From a virus: 27,548 nt of DNA. Positions 1-27,010 of the stretch are shown here, one piece after another. The stretch is taken from positions 1 to 27,548 of IMG/VR virus record IMGVR_UViG_3300013307_000044; one strand, given 5' to 3'. The translations under genes and the position numbers were made by a program. The stretch's first letter is position 1. The number at the start of each line of letters is the position of its first letter. A model generated the notes under the pieces. That model searched no databases, was not told where the DNA came from, and saw only the letters and a program-made list of their open reading frames with translations.

Positions 1-1664
1 AATCTGAATACTGGATTGATATGGATTACACCGAAGAAGAGATCAACGCTCTCGGGAAAGTAATTGACCATAATAAAAACTTGGATTATGATTACAGCGT
101 CTTACGTCAGATGGAAGATAAATGTCTGGTGCGTGATGTAATCAACGGAGTAGTACACGAAACTCCTCAGTTCCTGTTTATGGGCCTGGCGATGAAAGTG
201 ATGGAGAAGCAGCCTAAAGAAACTCGTCTCCTGGATGTTACTCAACTGTACACATACACCAGCGATTTGAAGATCAACCTGCCATCTCCGTATCTGACAA
301 CAGTACGTACTCGGATCTTGGGTAGCGCTTCTTGCTGTCTGTTCCGTGCAGATGATACTGCTCAGTCTCAGCGTATCGCTAATACGATTGCTCACGAGTA
401 TACACTGAATAACGCAGGTATTGGTGTTAACATCTCTACTCGTGCTACAGGCCAGGGCGTAAAGAATAACCGAATCGTTCACGGCGGTATGCTTCCTTAC
501 CTTCGTTGGATGGAGAGCAGCGTTGGTGCGTCGAAACAAGCCTCTCGTGGTGGTAGTGCAACAATTACGTTCACCTGCTTGGAGCCGGACTTTGATGACC
601 TTGTACGACTGAAAAACCCAACTACACCAAATAACAAACGTGTAGATAAACTGGACTACTCAGTTGTGGTGAATAACGCATTCCTTCGTCGTGCAGCACA
701 AGGCAAGGAGTGGATGCTGGTGAGTGTTAACGAAGCTCCGGAACTGTATGATGCGCTCTACGCCTCAGAAGAAGAGTTTGAGGAAGTATATGAGCGTGTA
801 AGTCGTAAACGAATCAAGAAGACTGTGGTTAAGGCTCGTGATATGCTGGTGGAAATCATCAAGCAACGTGCAGAGACCGGACGTATTTATATTTTCTTCG
901 CAGATAACGTAAACCGTCATACACCTTTCTTGGACACGATCTTCCAGTCAAATTTGTGTCAGGAGATCTTCTTGCCTACAAAGGCATTCCAGAAAATGAG
1001 TGATCTGGATACTGGTGAGAATACTGATACATCAGAACTGGCGCTGTGCTTCCTAGCTTCTATTGTTGCAGGACGTGTTACACCAGAAGAGTACGAGGAT
1101 GTTGCTTACTACACAGTATTAACGATTGACAACATTATCGAAGATATGGTATATCCATTCTATCATAATGAAGTAACAGCTAAGGCTCGTCGTTCTATCG
1201 GTGTTGGTATCACAAACTTAGCTCACTACCTGGCAGCAAGTGACGCATCTTATACCGACGAAAAAGGTAAGGTGTTAATGCACGAACTGGCAGAACGCCA
1301 TTACTTCTGGTTGGCTAAAGCCTCTCTTCGCTTAGGTAAAGAGAAAGGTAATGCCGAGTGGATGGATAAAACCAAATGGCCTCAAGGTTGGTTGCCTATT
1401 GACACTTACTCTAAAGCTGTGGATGATATTGCAGACTTTGAGTTGAAGATGGATTGGGAAACACTCCGTTCAGAGATCATCGCTAACGGAGGTATCCGTA
1501 ATAGTGTGCTGACCGCAGTTGCACCGAATGAATCATCTTCTTTGGTGAGTAATACAACAAACAGTCTGTACCCTGTGCGTGACACAATTATCTTTAAGCA
1601 GAGTCAGAAAGGTAACGTACTGTTCATCGTTCCTGAATATGATCGACTGAAAGATAAATACTAG
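1..1664 (+). CDS. nrdA: Class Ia ribonucleotide reductase large subunit, main part (5' end off-window, ends at in-frame TAG)
   Basis: This is the catalytic body of NrdA, which reduces ribonucleoside diphosphates to deoxyribonucleoside diphosphates together with NrdB. The frame is open from the first bases of the window, so the ATG at 21 is internal (it lies in the conserved DYTEEE segment) and the true start is upstream. Numbered from that Met, C105 (SASCCLFR) and C343 (ALCFLA) match the redox pair C225/C462 of the E. coli enzyme. N311, C313 and E315 in NLCQEI match N437/C439/E441, the thiyl-radical site. The frame stops at TAG 1662-1664, exactly where family members continue with a Y-E-L-L-W-type segment. 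The homologous C-terminal part follows in the same frame with no insertion. Without that part, the radical-transfer tyrosines and the tail cysteines are missing. Identity is certain; whether the split gene is functional is not. Confidence 0.97.
   Translation, partial: SEYWIDMDYTEEEINALGKVIDHNKNLDYDYSVLRQMEDKCLVRDVINGVVHETPQFLFMGLAMKVMEKQPKETRLLDVTQLYTYTSDLKINLPSPYLTTVRTRILGSASCCLFRADDTAQSQRIANTIAHEYTLNNAGIGVNISTRATGQGVKNNRIVHGGMLPYLRWMESSVGASKQASRGGSATITFTCLEPDFDDLVRLKNPTTPNNKRVDKLDYSVVVNNAFLRRAAQGKEWMLVSVNEAPELYDALYASEEEFEEVYERVSRKRIKKTVVKARDMLVEIIKQRAETGRIYIFFADNVNRHTPFLDTIFQSNLCQEIFLPTKAFQKMSDLDTGENTDTSELALCFLASIVAGRVTPEEYEDVAYYTVLTIDNIIEDMVYPFYHNEVTAKARRSIGVGITNLAHYLAASDASYTDEKGKVLMHELAERHYFWLAKASLRLGKEKGNAEWMDKTKWPQGWLPIDTYSKAVDDIADFELKMDWETLRSEIIANGGIRNSVLTAVAPNESSSLVSNTTNSLYPVRDTIIFKQSQKGNVLFIVPEYDRLKDKY
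1662..1664 (+). other. In-frame amber codon inside nrdA
   Basis: TAG interrupts a frame that is otherwise continuous and homologous to NrdA on both sides. The codons before it encode RLKDKY and those after it encode IAWDVPHKH. E. coli and T4 NrdA have Glu at the start of the matching YELLWEMP segment. A single-base change from CAG (Gln) or GAG (Glu) would create it. TAG is otherwise rare as a terminator here: I found it ending only one other gene, at 16646-16648. Confidence 0.9.
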
Positions 1665-1985
1665 ATTGCCTGGGATGTACCTCATAAGCATATGGCTGAA
1701 TGCTACGGCATCTTCACTAAGTTTATGGATCAGGGTATCTCTTGTGATGAATGGGCTGATTACACCAAGTCAGAAGACGGAAAACTGTCTTACAAGACGG
1801 AGATTCAGTTTATCCTGACAATGGCTAAGCTGGGGGCTAAATCTCTGTACTATATGAACAGCCGCACCAAATCCTCTGAAACAATGGCAGATCAAGATCT
1901 TAAAGCCTTGGGTATGGAAGCAAATGCACTTGAACAGCTTCCTGACGAAGAGGAAGAAGATGGTTGTGAAGCGTGTAAAATGTGA
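1665..1985 (+). CDS. nrdA: Class Ia ribonucleotide reductase large subunit, C-terminal part (in frame after TAG)
   Basis: This is the last ~106 residues of NrdA, in the same frame as the upstream part. It carries the LYYMN motif, equivalent to the Y730/Y731 pair that passes the radical from NrdB. It ends in a GCEACKM tail, equivalent to the C754/C759 tail that shuttles electrons from glutaredoxin or thioredoxin. The tail here is C-x2-C, while E. coli has C-x4-C. If translated on its own, the first ATG is at 1692. It has no convincing Shine-Dalgarno sequence and lies 27 bases after the stop, so readthrough or weak reinitiation would be needed. The stop TGA is followed at once by a strong terminator. 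Confidence 0.93.
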   Translation: MAWDVPHKHMAECYGIFTKFMDQGISCDEWADYTKSEDGKLSYKTEIQFILTMAKLGAKSLYYMNSRTKSSETMADQDLKALGMEANALEQLPDEEEEDGCEACKM

Positions 1986-2501: not shown

Positions 2502-2640
2502 AGTTAAACTATCACTAGGTGAACTATCAGCCTTGATTGACCTTATTGAGATGGCTCAAGATCACAATATTTCCCTGAGCGACTCTCAGAAGGAAGTTTA
2601 TAAATATTTACAAAGCAAAGAAGCGGAGGAACTAATCTAA
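2485..2640 (+). CDS. Small protein between NADAR-like gene and nrdB
   Basis: This 51-residue protein starts at an ATG overlapping the end of the NADAR-like gene by 17 bases, with TAAGGAG four bases upstream. Its TAA shares one base with the nrdB ATG (TAATG), which implies coupled translation. It is mostly helical by composition (SLGELSALIDLIEMAQ near residues 9-24), followed by a polar second half. I do not recognise the family. Its place directly before nrdB may be a matter of packing rather than function. Confidence 0.8.
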   Translation: MGSLIEVKLSLGELSALIDLIEMAQDHNISLSDSQKEVYKYLQSKEAEELI

Positions 2641-3734
2641 TGGCAGCAATCAACCTTAAGAATGACAACTATAAAAGCGGCATCTACCCTGTATTCTTAG
2701 GACAACAGTTAGGCATCTACGACAGTATCAATAAAGCCTATCCAGAAATGTTTGACCTGTATAAAAAGCAAAAGGCGCAAGATTGGGCAGAGGATGAAGT
2801 TGATCTAGACCAGTCACGTAAAGACTTTGCAACCTGCTCTCAGAACAACTTTGACGTTATGATCAAGACGCTTAGTTTTCAGTGGGAAAACGACTCCCTA
2901 GCAAAATCAATTATCACATTGTTTGCTCCGTTCTTGACAAACAATGAAGCAAGTGCAATGATGCTGAAACAATCTGAGGTGGAACTGCTTCACGCACTCA
3001 CCTATTCAGAGATTGTGCGTCAGTGCGTTAAAGACCCAAACAAAGTTATTGATGAAATCGTTAAGAACGAAAGCATCTTCAACCGTATGGGTATCGTAGA
3101 AGAAGTAATGTCAGAACTTGAGATTGCAGGACACAAGTACGCTCTCGGGATGCTGACAGTAGAGAATGACGGCCCTTATATCAGACAGCTTCTGCTGGAA
3201 GGTATGGTTGCTCTGATTGCCTTAGAAGGTATTCAGTTTATGTCTTCGTTCTCTGCAACGTTTGCCCTGGCTGAACAAGGCTTGTTCATCGGTGCAGCTA
3301 AACTGGTTCAGAAAATTATGCTGGATGAAATGTTGCACGTCCGTATGGACTATGCTATCATCGACGCATTGTTAAAAGATCCTGTTTGGGCAGAAGCCTA
3401 TGAAACAGCTAAACCACGTCTGAAACTTATCTTAGACACGGTGGTTGACCAGGAACGACAGTGGGCTAAGTATATGTTTAGCGAAGGACGTGTTGTTGTA
3501 GGCTTGAATGAAGTACTGATGATGGAATGGGTGTATTACAATTGTGCTCCTATTTATCGTCGTCTGAAACTCAAAGCAGACTTCAAAGCCCCTAAGCAAA
3601 ACCCTACTCCTTGGATGGACTTCTGGACTGATCCAGATAAAACTCAAGCAGCAGCACAAGAGATTCAGCTCACAAACTATAAACTCAACTCAATGAAACA
3701 AGATTTCAGCGACGAAGAGAAATTTGATTTTTAA
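2640..3734 (+). CDS. nrdB: Class Ia ribonucleotide reductase small subunit
   Basis: This is the radical-generating beta subunit (364 residues, normal length) that pairs with NrdA. The di-iron ligands are visible: D85 (ENDSLA), E115 and H118 (VELLH), E196 (ALEGIQF), and E230 with H233 (LDEMLH). The radical tyrosine is Y122, with the same E-x2-H-x3-Y spacing as in E. coli. The acidic C-terminus FSDEEKFDF is the usual NrdA-docking tail. The start overlaps the previous stop (TAATG), and GGAGG lies about ten bases upstream. This subunit is intact, in contrast to the interrupted nrdA. Confidence 0.98.
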   Translation: MAAINLKNDNYKSGIYPVFLGQQLGIYDSINKAYPEMFDLYKKQKAQDWAEDEVDLDQSRKDFATCSQNNFDVMIKTLSFQWENDSLAKSIITLFAPFLTNNEASAMMLKQSEVELLHALTYSEIVRQCVKDPNKVIDEIVKNESIFNRMGIVEEVMSELEIAGHKYALGMLTVENDGPYIRQLLLEGMVALIALEGIQFMSSFSATFALAEQGLFIGAAKLVQKIMLDEMLHVRMDYAIIDALLKDPVWAEAYETAKPRLKLILDTVVDQERQWAKYMFSEGRVVVGLNEVLMMEWVYYNCAPIYRRLKLKADFKAPKQNPTPWMDFWTDPDKTQAAAQEIQLTNYKLNSMKQDFSDEEKFDF

Positions 3735-4252: not shown

Positions 4253-4267
4253 AGATTGATGAGACGT

Positions 4268-5257
4268 ATGAGAATTCTAGTAACAGGTGGAGCAGGCTTT
4301 ATTGGAAGTGCTGTTGTTCGCCAACTTCTTGAGACCACTGACGCTCAGATAGCTGTCGTGGATAAAATGGGATATGCGTCTGATCTGAGAAACGCACCTA
4401 TTCTGGAAAACCAAAGAGTAGTGTTTTATGAGTTTGACCTGGCGTTGCCGTTCAGAGTAAACTCTATGATCGAAGATTTCGATCCACACATCATTATGCA
4501 TCTCGCAGCAGAGAGTCACGTTGACAATTCTATCGGAGATCCTGCGCCATTTATTTATTCGAACATAATTGGAACTTTCAACTTACTGGAAGCAGTAAGG
4601 AATCGTTCCAACAGTTTAATGTTGTTCCATCACATTTCAACCGACGAGGTGTATGGGGATCTGAGTGATCGAGAAGAAGAGAATGCCAAGTTCAAGGAGA
4701 CAGATGCCTACGATCCTAGTAGCCCTTATTCTGCATCTAAAGCAGCCAGTGATCATTTAGTCAGATCTTGGGGAAGAACATATAAAATCCCTGTGGTGGT
4801 AACAAACTGCTCTAACAACTACGGGCCATACCATCACCCTGAAAAACTAATCCCTTCTGTAATCACAAATGCGCTAAAAGGTAGTCCGATCCGTGTCTAC
4901 GGCAAGGGAAACCAAATTCGTGATTGGCTATATGTAGAAGATCACGCAAGAGCGCTGATTCAGGTAGCAACAAGCGGTAAAGATGGTGAGACATATAACA
5001 TTGGTGGATGTAACGAACGTACCAATCTACAGGTCGTACAAGCGATTCTAAGCCGTCTTAAAGAAAAGACAGGCAAAGACTACAGTCAACTCGTTACGCA
5101 CGTCCCAGACCGTCCAGTGCACGATTATCGCTATGCTATCAATGCTGACAAGATTATTTCTGAATTGGGCTGGTATCCGCAGGAAACCTTCGAGTCAGGT
5201 ATTGTGAAAACTGTCGATTGGTATCTGGAAAACTTGGATTGGGTAGAGGGTAAATAA
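4268..5257 (+). CDS. rmlB: dTDP-glucose 4,6-dehydratase
   Basis: RmlB converts dTDP-glucose to dTDP-4-keto-6-deoxyglucose, the second step of dTDP-L-rhamnose synthesis. The 329-residue protein is a full-length extended SDR. It has a Rossmann NAD motif TGGAGFIG (6-13), the catalytic T125-D126-E127 (STDEVYG), Y154-x3-K158 (YSASK), and [17 protein letters not shown] (180-196), which is typical of RmlB. I chose the ATG at 4268 because MRILVTGG is the usual family N-terminus. An ATG at 4259 would add three residues, and no strong ribosome site decides between them. The stop overlaps the rmlA start (TAATG). Confidence 0.97.
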
Positions 5258-6135
5258 TGAAAGGAATTATTCTGGCTGGCGGGAGTGGAACCCGCCTACA
5301 TCCAGTGACAAAAGGCGTAAGCAAACAGTTATTGCCTGTCTATGATAAACCAATGGTGTACTATCCACTCTCAGTGCTTATGCTAGCAGGAATACGTGAG
5401 ATTCTAATCATCACTACACCCAAAGATAAGGCAGCATTCGTAGAGCTACTTGGGGATGGGAGTACTTGGGGATTAACCCTGTCCTATGCTACACAAGATC
5501 AGCCTAACGGTTTGGCAGAAGCATTCATTATTGGGGAAGACTTCATTGCAGGTGATGATGTTGCGTTGGTATTAGGAGATAATCTATTCTTTGGGGAAAG
5601 CTTCACAGAGAAACTAATTCGAGTCCGAACCAGGGTGGAACAATATGGAGGTGCGGGTATCTTTGCTTATGAGGTAAAAGACCCTCAGAGATTTGGTGTT
5701 GTCTGTAAAGACGAACGCAACCGTGTGGTGTCTATCGAAGAAAAGCCAACTGACCCTAAGTCAAACCTAGCTGTAACAGGCTTGTACTTCTATGATTATA
5801 CAGTTGTAGAAAAAGCGAAAAGTGTTAAACCTTCCAAGCGGGGAGAGTTAGAGATTACCGATATAAATAACTTTTATATCGAAGATGAAAATCTTTCTGT
5901 AGAGGTATTGGGGCGTGGTTTTGCTTGGTTAGATACAGGAACACACGAAAGTCTTCTGGAAGCCGCTGGATATGTAAGAACACTCCAACGACAGCAAGGA
6001 ACTTATATTGCCTGCTTGGAAGAGATTGCTTTCAAGAAGGGCTGGATTAATCGAGAACAACTGTTAGCCAGTGGTCAGGAGTTGTCTAAGATCGAATACG
6101 GATCATACATTTTAAAATTGTTTGGAGACTATTAA
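5257..6135 (+). CDS. rmlA: Glucose-1-phosphate thymidylyltransferase
   Basis: RmlA joins glucose-1-phosphate and dTTP to make dTDP-glucose, the entry step of the rhamnose pathway. The protein (292 residues, normal for the short RmlA type) opens with the nucleotide-binding loop GGSGTRLHP (8-16), followed by [12 protein letters not shown]. Further on are [12 protein letters not shown] and [15 protein letters not shown], all standard for the family. The start overlaps the rmlB stop by one base. By using dTTP it links the pathway to the nucleotide supply made by the phage reductase. Confidence 0.97.
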
Positions 6136-6687
6136 GTGAAAGTAAAGAGTTTTGATATTGAGGGGTTGAAACTTTTCAGTCCCAAGATCTTCGGGGATGA
6201 AAGAGGTTATTTCTACGAGTCTTTCAACCAAGCGGATTATGACGAACACATTGGTTATGAGATATTCGTTCAGGACAACGTTTCCAAGTCTAAGAGAGGA
6301 GTGCTTCGTGGTATGCACTTCCAGACACAGAACCCTCAAGGTAAACTTGTCCGTGTAATGTCGGGTAGCGTCTACGATGTAGCTGTTGACCTGAGAGAAG
6401 GATCTTCTACCTTTGGTCAGTGGGAAGGCGTGGTTTTGAGTGATCGTAATAAGGATATCTTCTGGATTCCACCTGGCTTTGCTCACGGTTTTGTTGTAAT
6501 GAGCGAAGAGGTTATTTTTGAATACAAATGCACTCAGTTCTATCACCCAGCCTCAGAGGTAAGTTTGGCTTGGGATGATCCTGATGTTGGGATTGATTGG
6601 GGATTTGACTTAATGGGCAAGAACTTCAAAGTCACTCTATCGGATAAAGATGCAAATGCAAAATCACTTAAGGAGATCTTTGGATGA
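6136..6687 (+). CDS. rmlC: dTDP-4-dehydrorhamnose 3,5-epimerase
   Basis: RmlC epimerises dTDP-4-keto-6-deoxyglucose at C3 and C5. The 183-residue cupin contains LRGMHFQ with the catalytic base H61, PQGKLVRV with K70, and EYKCTQFYHP with Y130, the usual acid/base set. It starts with GTG directly after the rmlA TAA, with GGAG eight bases upstream. Its TGA overlaps the rmlD ATG by four bases (ATGA), so the cassette is translated as a coupled unit. Confidence 0.96.
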   Translation: MKVKSFDIEGLKLFSPKIFGDERGYFYESFNQADYDEHIGYEIFVQDNVSKSKRGVLRGMHFQTQNPQGKLVRVMSGSVYDVAVDLREGSSTFGQWEGVVLSDRNKDIFWIPPGFAHGFVVMSEEVIFEYKCTQFYHPASEVSLAWDDPDVGIDWGFDLMGKNFKVTLSDKDANAKSLKEIFG

Positions 6688-7505
6688 AATATTTAGTCTT
6701 TGGTGGATATGGGCAGCTAGGATCTGCCCTAGCAAAATATAAGCCAGAAGGTGTTCAGGTTATTCAGCTAGATAGCGGAGCAGATATCACTGATTACTTC
6801 AAGGTTAAATCTATTATTGATGAAGTTATGCCTGACGTTGTGGTTAACTGTGCAGCCTACACAAACGTTAATAAAGCAGAACAGGAACAAGATAAAGCAT
6901 TCTCCATTAATGCTCTTGGGCCTTCTATTCTGACCAAGCTTTGTTCAGACCGTCAGATCCGATTCATTCATATTTCATCGGACTATGTTTTCGATGGAAG
7001 AAAATCTGCACCTTATAACTCTTGGGATGATACAAACCCTCTGAACGTGTACGGGGTGACAAAAGAAGCAGGAGAGATCTTTGCATCTGGTCACAAGTGG
7101 TATAGCCCTCTGGTAATTAGAACATCTTGGGTGTATAGTGAGTTTGGAAACAACTTTGCTAAGACCATTCTGAAACGATTAGAAAATGGTATCACCGAGT
7201 TCAACGTAGTAGATGATCAGATAGGCACACCGACATACGCCGGACACATCGCGGAAGCTATCTTTGAATATTATGGCAAAGGCGACCTGTTCTTAGAGAC
7301 AGGTATTGTTCACTTCTCGGGTAATCGAGCATTGAGTTGGTATGACTTCACAAAGTTATTGACACAGGATGTTGATTCTGTTATAGTCTCTCCAACGAAA
7401 ACAGTGTCGCAAGTAGAGCGTCCAGCGTATTCCGCTTTAGCCTCTTCTTTTGGTATTTATAGCGATATCGAAGAAGGTATTCTGAGAACAAAACAAAATC
7501 TTTAA
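6684..7505 (+). CDS. rmlD: dTDP-4-dehydrorhamnose reductase
   Basis: RmlD performs the last step, reducing the keto sugar to dTDP-L-rhamnose. The 273-residue SDR has the GGYGQLG cofactor loop (7-13), NCAAYTNVNKAE, SDYVFDG (99-105) and the Y123-x3-K127 catalytic pair (YGVTK). Length is slightly shorter than typical bacterial RmlD but the family core is complete. With rmlB, rmlA and rmlC it forms a complete four-enzyme pathway in one tight operon. No rhamnosyltransferase is present in the window, so the acceptor (host surface sugar, virion protein or DNA) cannot be told. Confidence 0.94.
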   Translation: MKYLVFGGYGQLGSALAKYKPEGVQVIQLDSGADITDYFKVKSIIDEVMPDVVVNCAAYTNVNKAEQEQDKAFSINALGPSILTKLCSDRQIRFIHISSDYVFDGRKSAPYNSWDDTNPLNVYGVTKEAGEIFASGHKWYSPLVIRTSWVYSEFGNNFAKTILKRLENGITEFNVVDDQIGTPTYAGHIAEAIFEYYGKGDLFLETGIVHFSGNRALSWYDFTKLLTQDVDSVIVSPTKTVSQVERPAYSALASSFGIYSDIEEGILRTKQNL

Positions 7506-9576: not shown

Positions 9577-10218
9577 ATGACTACAATTATTGCTACCCGA
9601 GATGCAATCTATAGTGACGGGATGATTACAGTAGGGGATCGTGTTGACAGCGTTAACTTCAACAAGGTAAGAAAGATTGAAGGATACCTTGTAGGCGGTG
9701 CTGGTCGCTTATCCTCTATCCTAACATTCTTCTCTTGGATGGAAGAACGTATCAAAGCAGAACGTCTGTCCGAAGAACTACCCAGCTTGGATTTTGATAA
9801 TGATCCAGAAAAAGACGACGAAGAGTTTACTGCTTTAGTTGTTCATCCTGACGGTGAAATCTATTTGCACGAAGGTAATGATCCTTCACGAGCATATCCA
9901 ATTGATACGGAGTATTATGCAGTCGGAAGCGGTAGTGACTACGCATTAGCAGCATTAGATGCAGGAGCCACACCAGAAGCTGCTATGGATGTTGCCAAGT
10001 TCAGAGATGCATTCTCAGGTGGAGCAACATTCTCAGAACATATCCCGCCAGAAGAAAAGAAAGTCGAACTTACGGATGAAGTTATGGGACTTATGAGCAA
10101 GGAAGAGTTGATGCACCTTATCAAAACAGGAGTACCACTTGGAAAACCCGAACAAGTATTTGTTAGCAACAGACCAAATCCTGAGCCTGACACCAGAAGC
10201 CAAACACCTACTGGCTGA
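9577..10218 (+). CDS. HslV/proteasome-beta-like Ntn hydrolase
   Basis: This 213-residue protein matches the N-terminal nucleophile fold of HslV. After Met removal it begins T1-T-I-I-A, so Thr would be the catalytic nucleophile. Asp13 (IYSDG) and Lys29 (NKVRKI) are 16 residues apart, exactly like D17 and K33 of HslV. An AVGSGSDYALAALDAG segment corresponds to the GSGG-YA-A region. It has an internal acidic insertion (around residues 64-82) and a Pro-rich tail beyond the usual domain. No HslU-like ATPase is in the window, so it may act alone or with a host unfoldase. Whether it cleaves peptides is not shown. The start has a perfect AAGGAGGT-type site. Confidence 0.82.
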   Translation: MTTIIATRDAIYSDGMITVGDRVDSVNFNKVRKIEGYLVGGAGRLSSILTFFSWMEERIKAERLSEELPSLDFDNDPEKDDEEFTALVVHPDGEIYLHEGNDPSRAYPIDTEYYAVGSGSDYALAALDAGATPEAAMDVAKFRDAFSGGATFSEHIPPEEKKVELTDEVMGLMSKEELMHLIKTGVPLGKPEQVFVSNRPNPEPDTRSQTPTG

Positions 10219-10320: not shown

Positions 10321-10563
10321 ATGTTAATTACTAAAGTGGAAGTATTGGCGAAACATTTCGCCTTTCAGCAAACGAGGAAGCTAGGCAGAAACCTAAGAAT
10401 CGCAATGGCACGTAAAATGTATTGGGTGCCTGGAAAAGGCATCTTCGGGAATTTCTATGACAACTACACCAACGTGTTTGGTGAGGCAATGTTAAAGAAT
10501 CCTAAAAAGGAAGAGATCCTTGATACGTTGCTTGCAATGGATAAGATTTCCGTGGTAAACTAA
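10321..10563 (+). CDS. Small basic protein of unknown function
   Basis: This 80-residue protein has an AAGGAG site seven bases upstream of its ATG. The N-terminal half is strongly basic (QQTRKLGRNLRIAMARK, residues 17-33), suggesting nucleic-acid contact. The second half has aromatic residues and an acidic helix. No family is recognised. Confidence 0.75.
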   Translation: MLITKVEVLAKHFAFQQTRKLGRNLRIAMARKMYWVPGKGIFGNFYDNYTNVFGEAMLKNPKKEEILDTLLAMDKISVVN

Positions 10564-10588
10564 TCTACTGGCCTTCTATGACGAAACT

Positions 10589-10744
10589 ATGCAGGGCGAA
10601 GAGATGTTCCAAGCGCTGCTAGCTAAGTTTGAAGATAAAGAAGAACTTGACATTGACGAAAGGTGTGTTACTATCGTTAGGTTCCTCGGAGACTTTAACG
10701 AAGAGACTCACGAAGGTAAGGGTGTGAAATGCCCGCAACTTTAA
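10589..10744 (+). CDS. Small acidic protein, start uncertain
   Basis: A coding-like frame fills the 165 bases between two genes. The frame is open from 10559, with plausible protein sequence from about 10565 on. The first ATG is at 10589, giving 51 acidic residues (QALLAKFEDKEELDID near the start), but it lacks a good ribosome site. It overlaps the methyltransferase start by 16 bases. Either the start is unusual or the frame is the tail of the upstream gene, reached by a +1 shift near 10558-10563. Confidence 0.5.
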   Translation: MQGEEMFQALLAKFEDKEELDIDERCVTIVRFLGDFNEETHEGKGVKCPQL

Positions 10745-12307: not shown

Positions 12308-13066
12308 ATGTTTCAGCAAAATGTTAAAGAGGGCGATGGTAAACGAGTTTTAGTGTTTGGTGATGTTCACGGAGCCTGGCACCTGCTGGAAAAAGCTATC
12401 CACGATCTAGCCATTGAGAAGGGGGATGTAAAAGTCTTCCTTGGCGATCTAACAGACCGAGGAACCGAAAACCTCAAGTGTGTTGACTACGCTGTTAACA
12501 CAGAAAACTCATATGTTGTTCGTGGTAATCACGATGATATGTTGATTCAAGGTTTGCTGGAAGGAGATCAGAGGAACTATCTAGGATGGTTACAGAATGG
12601 TGGAAAGACTGTATTAGCCGAAGTTGGTGAGGAAGGTAGTACTTGCTTAGCAGTGATGCTGGAGAACAAGTCCTATTATCTTATTACGATGGAAGTTAAC
12701 GGTAAGGTGTACGCTTTCAGTCACGCAGAATATCCGCTGGAATTGGAAGAAGTGCCACCTCAAGCTCTGGAAAAAGTTCTTGAGCGCTTGTATCCTAATG
12801 ATCTCGACCAAGCGAAAGCAGAGATTGCTCAAATGCTTTGCTGGAACAGAACTATTATCGGTGCGATTGAACAGGGATACAAACTCCCTGACGTACCTGG
12901 CGTGGAGATGATTTTCCACGGACATACCGGAGTGAAATATCCTGTTATTCACGGCAACCGAGCCTATATTGATACAGGATCAGTATTCACTCAGAAACTT
13001 ACAGTGGCTGTTATCGAACCTAATGGTGAGATCTGGTATTACAATACCAAGATGGAGGAGCTATGA
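12308..13066 (+). CDS. PPP-family metallophosphatase (lambda phosphatase/PphA-like)
   Basis: This 252-residue calcineurin-like phosphoesterase is of the bacterial/phage Ser/Thr phosphatase type. Metal and catalytic motifs are in order: GDVHG (18-22), GDLTDRG (46-52), RGNHD (72-76), a His at 139 (FSHAEYP) and FHGHTG (203-208). Lambda NinI-type enzymes dephosphorylate proteins and small phosphoesters using Mn. GGAGG precedes the ATG. Its TGA overlaps the next ATG (ATGA). Confidence 0.93.
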   Translation: MFQQNVKEGDGKRVLVFGDVHGAWHLLEKAIHDLAIEKGDVKVFLGDLTDRGTENLKCVDYAVNTENSYVVRGNHDDMLIQGLLEGDQRNYLGWLQNGGKTVLAEVGEEGSTCLAVMLENKSYYLITMEVNGKVYAFSHAEYPLELEEVPPQALEKVLERLYPNDLDQAKAEIAQMLCWNRTIIGAIEQGYKLPDVPGVEMIFHGHTGVKYPVIHGNRAYIDTGSVFTQKLTVAVIEPNGEIWYYNTKMEEL

Positions 13067-13245
13067 ATATTCAAGATATGATCGAAGATCGTGACTGCTA
13101 TTGCCGCAAATGCGGAGGGTTAGTGGACTTGAAAAACTCTCTGGCTAAACTAACTTCGCCACCGCAGTACCACTATCACTGCAAGGCTTGTTTTGCACAC
13201 GTATTAACCGTAAGAGGGGAGACATATACAAATGTTCAAGATTAA
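13063..13245 (+). CDS. Zinc-ribbon small protein
   Basis: This 60-residue protein has two cysteine clusters, DCYCRKCGG (11-19) and HYHCKACF (37-44), consistent with one zinc-ribbon site. It overlaps the phosphatase end by four bases and the next gene by 14. Such phage zinc-ribbons often contact nucleic acids or protein partners; the partner is unknown here. Confidence 0.8.
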   Translation: MNIQDMIEDRDCYCRKCGGLVDLKNSLAKLTSPPQYHYHCKACFAHVLTVRGETYTNVQD

Positions 13246-20798: not shown

Positions 20799-21725
20799 TT
20801 ACTCTCCTTTATAAGGTCTACAATTATGCTGATTCGCTTTGAATCGCTCTATGTAATCTGTCTTACCCAAGCTGTGATAAAGATTCACAACCTTGAAGTA
20901 GTTCTCCCACGCATAGGTACGAAAACGCCCTGATGTGATTGAAGTACAGATTTTCATTAATGCTATCATAAAACTTCGTTCTGGGTCAATCTCAAAGTTG
21001 TTTGGGATCTGAGAACGTTCTAACGCAAGCACACAAGCCTCTTCATAAACACCTAACAGACGGTATTCCTCTTCCACCTCAAAGAATTTATCCATAGAGG
21101 TGAGGACTTGAGCACCTTCAACCATATAATACCGGAAAGCTGGCTTGTCGTAAAGAGCAATTGCATCGTGAATATCGTCGTGCTGATAAACGTAGTTTAC
21201 ACCATCCCCAGAGAAAAACTCTCCACTAGATACATTTAGCTTAGGGTGAGAGTAGTTGTAGGTCTCTTTCATACGCTTATTGTAGATATCAACAAGCTCA
21301 CCCGTAATCTCAGCACCTAATGACCGCATAAAGTGGATATCCTTCATAGTTTTCAGGAAATGTACTGAGTTTTTCTTGAAACGATGTGACATTTTTAGCA
21401 GGTACAGGATGTTCAAAGGAACACACATACCTAAGCCGTCTGTTTGGATCTTTAAATGATTGCGATTGGTATAGCACCAAAGAAGGATATCATAGCCACT
21501 ACTACCTTCTTGAGCAATCTCATACTCTTCAATTATGTGACCATCTTTCTTGATTAATCATTTGTCTCCGGTACGGCTGACAGTGTACCCAGCAGCTTCT
21601 GAGCGATAAGAAACATTACTCCACTCCCGTTCAGAACAGATGTAATCGATATCCAGCATTGTTTTACGCAGCTTAATACCTTCTGGAACATACTCTAGCA
21701 AAGCCTGACTTCCGATAATAACCAT
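20799..21725 (-). pseudogene. Nucleotidyltransferase-like phage protein interrupted by in-frame TGA
   Basis: One minus-strand frame of 308 sense codons runs from an ATG at 21725 (GGAGGG upstream) to 20799, broken only by TGA at 21560-21558 (codon 56). The part before it begins VIIGSQAL and contains MLDIDYIC, a G-S...D-x-D arrangement like nucleotidyltransferase folds. The part after continues without a gap (LIKKDGHIIEEYEIAQ, then LLKMSHRFKKNSVHFLKTM). Similar phage proteins of this architecture exist to my memory (DUF7275-type), but I cannot check. The downstream part could only start at an ATG at 21428, which has no ribosome site. A CGA-to-TGA change would explain the break. The gene is likely inactive unless TGA is read through. 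Confidence 0.75.
21558..21560 (-). other. In-frame TGA codon inside the nucleotidyltransferase-like gene
   Basis: The minus-strand codons read GAC-AAA-TGA-TTA-ATC-AAG. Coding continues in the same frame on both sides. A single C-to-T change from CGA (Arg) is the simplest origin. Confidence 0.85.
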
Positions 21726-25845: not shown

Positions 25846-26095
25846 TTGATTCCTCCTCTTCGTCATATGGTTTTTCAATAGACTCAAAGGAGTGCAGAAC
25901 GTTATCAAAATAACCTCCGCTCTTCTGGTCTAGTTTTGCACCCGTTACACAGCTACCTGCGTATGCATCATTCTGAGAATCAGCGTAGGATTTGGCTACA
26001 GAGATGGCTCCTTGTTCTGTACTGAACAATCCAAGAATACCTTCGCTGTGCTCCCAACCATCAGACCAATCCCACCAGGCAATATAAATTTCCAT
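25820..26095 (-). CDS. Small acidic protein of unknown function
   Basis: This 91-residue protein has a Trp-rich beginning (YIAWWDWSDGWEHS) and an extremely acidic end (DEEEESNDEDEGCC). AGGAG precedes the ATG. Its first half resembles small phage proteins with an alpha/beta fold that also follows in the gene at 26191 (a VEDAISFA-like helix). No family name is known. Confidence 0.72.
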   Translation of the reverse strand: MEIYIAWWDWSDGWEHSEGILGLFSTEQGAISVAKSYADSQNDAYAGSCVTGAKLDQKSGGYFDNVLHSFESIEKPYDEEEESNDEDEGCC

Positions 26096-26110
26096 AATAG
26101 GTTTCTCCTA

Positions 26111-26191
26111 TCAATCGATGTGTTTTTGAACGTAAGCCTTTATCAACTGATCAAGATCTGCGTTCGTAAATAAAGGAGGATTTTCTTGCAT
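26111..26191 (-). CDS. 26-residue microprotein
   Basis: A short frame starts at TGATG, sharing a base with the upstream stop, and ends in TGA 16 bases before the next gene. An in-frame ATG at 26197 would add two residues. The peptide has a helical pattern (NADLDQLIKAYVQKH). Coupled translation and good packing support it, but it is small enough to be chance. Confidence 0.45.
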   Translation of the reverse strand: MQENPPLFTNADLDQLIKAYVQKHID

Positions 26192-26394
26192 CAACATTTA
26201 CTCCACAGGCTATCATCAATGTACCCCTGATCCACAACTTCCATTGTAGAGGTAGTTACCTGATAAATATCATTCGTCAAGTGGTTAACAGCAAAGCTGA
26301 TAGCATCTTCTACAGAGTCAAAAGATTCCACGTAGTCCTTAGCACCGCCGCTAGGGTAATAATTGTCAAAGGCAAACAGATGATATTTTTCCAT
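26191..26394 (-). CDS. Small acidic protein of unknown function
   Basis: This 67-residue protein starts at a TAATG overlap. It has aromatic N-terminal strands and a helix SVEDAISFAVNHL (27-39) like the one in the gene at 25820, which suggests the two are distant relatives. No known family name. Confidence 0.7.
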   Translation of the reverse strand: MEKYHLFAFDNYYPSGGAKDYVESFDSVEDAISFAVNHLTNDIYQVTTSTMEVVDQGYIDDSLWSKC

Positions 26395-26711
26395 TAATCT
26401 ACTCGCTCCACGATAGGAAGTAAATTATTACCCAATGCACCAGCAACCCACAACCGGAAAAGATTGTGCTCTTTTCGTAACTCTTTGTCAACGCCTTTCA
26501 TACCGTTGTGAATGTACACGGGTAATCCCATTCCGTTGATGATAAAGATAACGTAACCTTCCTCCCAAGCTTTGTTTAGAAAGCACATCTGAGAAGTGTG
26601 TACGTGATCACCATCTTTTGCTGCATCAAAAGCAAAATCGGTTTCACCGTAGCCTGTTAACAACTGTCCATCCTTATAATCAGAGAACGGATAGAACATT
26701 GCCATTTTCAT
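26394..26711 (-). CDS. Small protein of unknown function
   Basis: This 105-residue soluble protein has GGAGG four bases before the ATG at 26711. Mixed alpha/beta composition; no motif or membrane span is clear. It ends in a TAATG overlap with the next gene. Confidence 0.7.
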   Translation of the reverse strand: MKMAMFYPFSDYKDGQLLTGYGETDFAFDAAKDGDHVHTSQMCFLNKAWEEGYVIFIINGMGLPVYIHNGMKGVDKELRKEHNLFRLWVAGALGNNLLPIVERVD

Positions 26712-26719
26712 AACACCTC

Positions 26720-27010
26720 CTACCACTTAACAATAACATTTTCGATAACATCCGACTCGCTACGAGAGTACAGATACACAACTTCAAAACCAGCTACCTC
26801 CAGCATACGTTTATACGGCTCTAACTCTGATTTCTGGCGGTATCTAGCGTAATAAGGAGGATCAACTTGAAAGTGATCTTCTGGAGACAGGTAGACTTCG
26901 AATCGTCCACAACCAGCCGCTGACTCTATAGCACCAATAATATCAGCATTGATCTTATCTTTGTTAGCCTGGACAGACCGCTGACGTACTTCTTCTGCAT
27001 TTACCAACAT
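26720..27010 (-). CDS. Small protein of unknown function
   Basis: This 96-residue protein starts at an ATG at 27010 with GGGGGA upstream; an in-frame ATG at 27022 is an alternative. It has a helical, charged N-terminus, then a PEDHFQVDPPYYARYRQK segment and a beta-type end. It overlaps the upstream gene by ten bases. No family is recognised. Confidence 0.68.
   Translation of the reverse strand: MLVNAEEVRQRSVQANKDKINADIIGAIESAAGCGRFEVYLSPEDHFQVDPPYYARYRQKSELEPYKRMLEVAGFEVVYLYSRSESDVIENVIVKW

Follow-up and report, generated by a model that had tools for sequence, protein, structure and literature searches.

A TAG codon within the nrdA frame of a single metagenome-derived phage contig is, with high probability, a private and unselected change, either an error or a recent null allele. 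Every close relative examined has Gln at this position, and we therefore favor an error or a recent knock-out over a split or read-through enzyme. Sequencing or assembly error has about an even chance of being the cause, and a real nonsense allele that arose very recently in a minor phage variant is a strong candidate at somewhat under even chances. A functional split or read-through product finds no support and is quite improbable, with no special decoding mechanism involved, and our verdict on the split nrdA is that it is ordinary.

The nrdA Frame and Its Interruption

The window, as used here, is the whole stretch of DNA that was analyzed, a 27,548-base IMG/VR record that is probably a fragment. 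The contig begins mid-gene, with the 5′ end of nrdA off its edge. The features discussed below are:

3..1664, + strand: nrdA as far as the TAG (large subunit of class Ia RNR; 553 codons lie in the window; PF02867 1.3e-91, PF00317 1.9e-9, alignment A1)
123..125, + strand: second nrdA change confined to the window, replacing a near-invariant Tyr by Cys; base 123 is where contig L010 ends
1662..1664, + strand: in-frame TAG; Gln codon in the relatives L002-L008 (relatives' sequences)
1665..1985, + strand: rest of the nrdA frame, with the radical-transfer Tyr-Tyr motif and the Cys-X2-Cys tail, ending in TGA
2640..3734, + strand: intact nrdB, for the small subunit of class Ia RNR (PF00268 5.7e-35)

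The first-pass annotation described one nrdA frame split by a single amber codon, and this description is borne out. Window positions 3-1985 form a single class Ia NrdA frame whose sole interruption is the TAG at 1662-1664, beyond which the same frame runs gap-free to the TGA at 1983-1985. The PF02867 match (327-1856) spans the whole Pfam model (1-523) and contains exactly one internal TAG. With the TAG read through, the frame carries both the full-length barrel domain and the catalytic Cys and Tyr residues of an NrdA; one uninterrupted ORF is found in all seven relatives covering the site and not in the window. The motifs in alignment A1 likewise place the cysteines and the radical-transfer tyrosines where the annotation had them, the barrel cysteines (SASCC, SNLCQE, ALCF) all upstream of the TAG and the SLYYMNSR motif and GCEACKM tail downstream. 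The claim of a gapless break also stands: relatives align straight through the site, zero bases are inserted in the window relative to contigs G004 or G007 (the contigs of relatives L005 and L008), and no homing endonuclease, intein or intron is present there. The HNH gene of phage vB_Ec-G1 sits after nrdA rather than inside it.

One rival is a working enzyme made of two fragments: translation would begin again beyond the stop, perhaps at ATG 1692, and the resulting chains would associate like those of the NrdA of Aeromonas phage Aeh1, which is split yet fully active (PMC2988022). The downstream frame is intact and this ATG lies 28 bases past the stop, but it corresponds to a normal Met within the chain of the intact relatives, no ribosome-binding site is evident ahead of it, and a start there would lose nine residues including the near-invariant AWD. 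The earlier remark that the second part lacks a good start signal thus holds. Additionally, the gene is split in no relative. We consider a two-fragment enzyme of this kind highly improbable.

Relatives Encode Glutamine at the TAG Position

IMG/VR was scanned with the upstream NrdA protein as query. The matches comprised L002-L005 at ~100% protein identity, L006 and L008 at 93%, L007 at 84%, and the distant L009 at 38%, together with L010, which has only the first 123 bases of the window in common with it. Seven of them (L002-L008) span the site; each has Gln at the TAG position within an uninterrupted frame, and their open nrdA frames encode 774-779 aa with no internal stop. A stop conserved among relatives is thereby rejected. 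A search of IMG/VR with the first base of the codon left free returned only the four near-identical records, all with Gln, and the exact TAG variant occurs in no other IMG/VR record. Of eight annotated phage records taken, the NrdAs of seven were aligned (alignment A1); Gln occupies the site in five of five Stephanstirmvirinae-like phage NrdAs, and Thr and Ile occupy it in two more distant ones. A scan of genome contigs with a degenerate 18-base pattern of the TAG context returned 53 hits from diverse bacteria and archaea, which are presumably due to chance, the pattern being so short.

The first-pass annotation had named beforehand, as the second of two outcomes that would speak against it, close relatives all having an uninterrupted gene while this isolate grows with no NrdA tail. 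The first half of that outcome is what the comparison of relatives revealed.

Decoding of the TAG Codon

Full-length NrdA could also arise by read-through of the TAG, through a phage or host suppressor tRNA or through leaky termination. An amber suppressor that inserts Gln would bring back the ancestral residue that the TAG replaced. In-frame stops under purifying selection have been reported in bacteria (PMC7918605). The present stop, however, is not conserved in any relative, and RNA structure at the junction is no better than that of shuffled sequences. No tRNA gene was found in the 27,548-base window, and none of the 18 tRNA genes of the 141-kb G004 has an amber, ochre or opal anticodon. 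A tRNA with a CTA anticodon was accordingly found neither in the window, which is only part of its own phage genome, nor in G004. That the phage itself carries a suppressor is unlikely, with the qualification that most of its genome lies outside the window, and we give read-through as a whole very little credence.

Use of genetic code 15, in which TAG is read as Gln, would fit the identity of the replaced residue and has been demonstrated in two crAss-like phages (PMC9523058). Phages using this code would be expected to carry many in-frame TAGs in conserved genes and not to use TAG as a terminator, and neither is observed here. Because TAG is the terminator of other ORFs both in the window and in G004, and because among the genes shared with G004 an in-frame TAG interrupts nrdA alone, recoding is very unlikely; with G004 also lacking a suppressor tRNA, code 15 itself is extremely improbable.

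The possibilities that remain if the bare amber is real and NrdA is nonetheless made, either as two assembling fragments with no mobile element or at full length in a TAG-suppressing host, are together improbable. Either, if true, would represent a phage RNR that tolerates a bare nonsense split.

Selection on nrdA and an Apparent Excess of Unselected Changes

Compared with G004, the nrdA frame of the window has 38 differences, three of which are non-synonymous: Tyr to Cys (codon 123), Leu to Arg (codon 795) and Gln to stop (codon 1662). With G007 as outgroup, the codon 795 change falls on the G004 branch, and the two changes on the window branch (123 and 1662) are both at residues conserved in both outgroups. 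Because 35 of the 38 differences are synonymous and both window-branch changes hit conserved residues, strong purifying selection held nrdA intact until the stop arose, very recently.

The record as a whole appears, from comparison with its relatives, to carry an excess of unselected changes. Each of the contigs G001, G002 and G003 departs from G004 at just 1-4 positions over 8-35 kb, while between the window and G004 there are 859 substitutions, unevenly distributed at 3 to 218 per kb. In the first 10 kb the synonymous changes divide about equally between the window branch (63) and the G004 branch (57). Changes at residues that both outgroups (G007 and G006) conserve number nine on the window branch and none on the G004 branch in the same interval, a contrast with a Fisher p of 0.0046 that is indicative only, the comparison having been designed post hoc.

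Lesions elsewhere in the same contig accompany the TAG and were counted in favor of a private change. First, a 2-base deletion at ~10560 splits the phrog_15078 gene (window 10321-10744), which encodes 141 aa in G004. Second, an opal codon lies in the DUF7275/phrog_2141 gene (20799-21725, minus strand; function unassigned) where G004 has Gly. The direction of these two lesions, which have no outgroup coverage, rests on the intact gene in G004. Third, a 2-base deletion at ~6123 alters the RfbA C-terminus relative to G004, and finally, a G-to-T change falls in the Shine-Dalgarno-like GAGGAG ahead of rfbB; at both of these sites G007 agrees with G004.

Other features of the window were observed in passing. 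Positions 26000-27000 are a divergence hot spot relative to G004, with 218 differences per kb against a background of ~5-10, which suggests recombination. About 165 bases at 13065-13229 are absent from G004; the 60-aa ORF there (13063-13245) has no PHROG match. Four consecutive sugar-nucleotide genes (4256-7505) directly follow the RNR genes and resemble a dTDP-rhamnose rfb set, named from their own sequences and from the neighboring annotation in Citrobacter phage Tr1. At 9577-10218 there is a faint resemblance to the proteasome-subunit fold (PF00227), which at 20.3 bits falls short of the 22.4-bit cut-off.

A Probable Error or Recent Null Allele

The last 123 bases of a second contig, L010/G008 (IMGVR_UViG_3300013307_000074), are identical to the first 123 of the window, and the next base, 124, is the site of the window's Tyr-to-Cys change. 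The two contigs would seem to come from the same sample, and the simplest reading is that one assembly forked at base 124, with more than one allele present. This fork and the excess of changes at conserved sites would fit an error or a null allele. Two 2-base deletions, unusual as short-read errors, lean toward a real allele, as does the length of the contig, since 27.5 kb usually needs several-fold depth. That one record has this many disruptive changes speaks rather for error.

If the TAG is genuine, translation would stop 107 codons before the normal end. The residues lost are those that RNR chemistry needs for radical transfer and re-reduction. The truncated NrdA, missing the radical-transfer tyrosines and shuttle cysteines, would leave the aerobic RNR inactive, and the phage would, by established RNR chemistry, then rely on the host RNR. 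No backup anaerobic RNR (PF13597) was found in G002, G004 or G007. Were the allele real and common, it would be a case of a phage giving up its own aerobic RNR, which would say something modest about dependence on host nucleotide supply.

Among the three readings first offered for the split gene, a nonsense mutation, or the sequence error that was also allowed for, thus fits the comparison with relatives, and read-through and two-fragment assembly do not: the stop occurs in no relative, no suppressor tRNA was found in the window or the 141-kb G004, and no restart signal is evident. The case is mainly of interest as a caution, in that without a comparison of relatives a private stop in one metagenome contig can pass for a split or recoded enzyme.

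Comparison with Known Systems

The closest intact counterparts are the class Ia nrdA genes of the Stephanstirmvirinae phages (Phapecoctavirus, Justusliebigvirus and relatives), which belong to the same family, are ~78-79% identical in alignment A1, and share with the window the order nrdA, small gene, nrdB. Unlike the window, the aligned NrdAs of these phages have no internal stop and retain Gln at the site. In Aeromonas phage Aeh1, as here, the NrdA coding sequence is in two pieces. The Aeh1 gene, however, was split by insertion of the homing endonuclease gene mobE and remains functional (PMC2988022), whereas the window has no insert, and therefore no homing endonuclease gene at the split, and its stop is private to one record. 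The TAG agrees, in all that the data show, with a private nonsense change in a single record, whether error or null allele, which would likewise be absent from all relatives and have other unselected changes alongside it.
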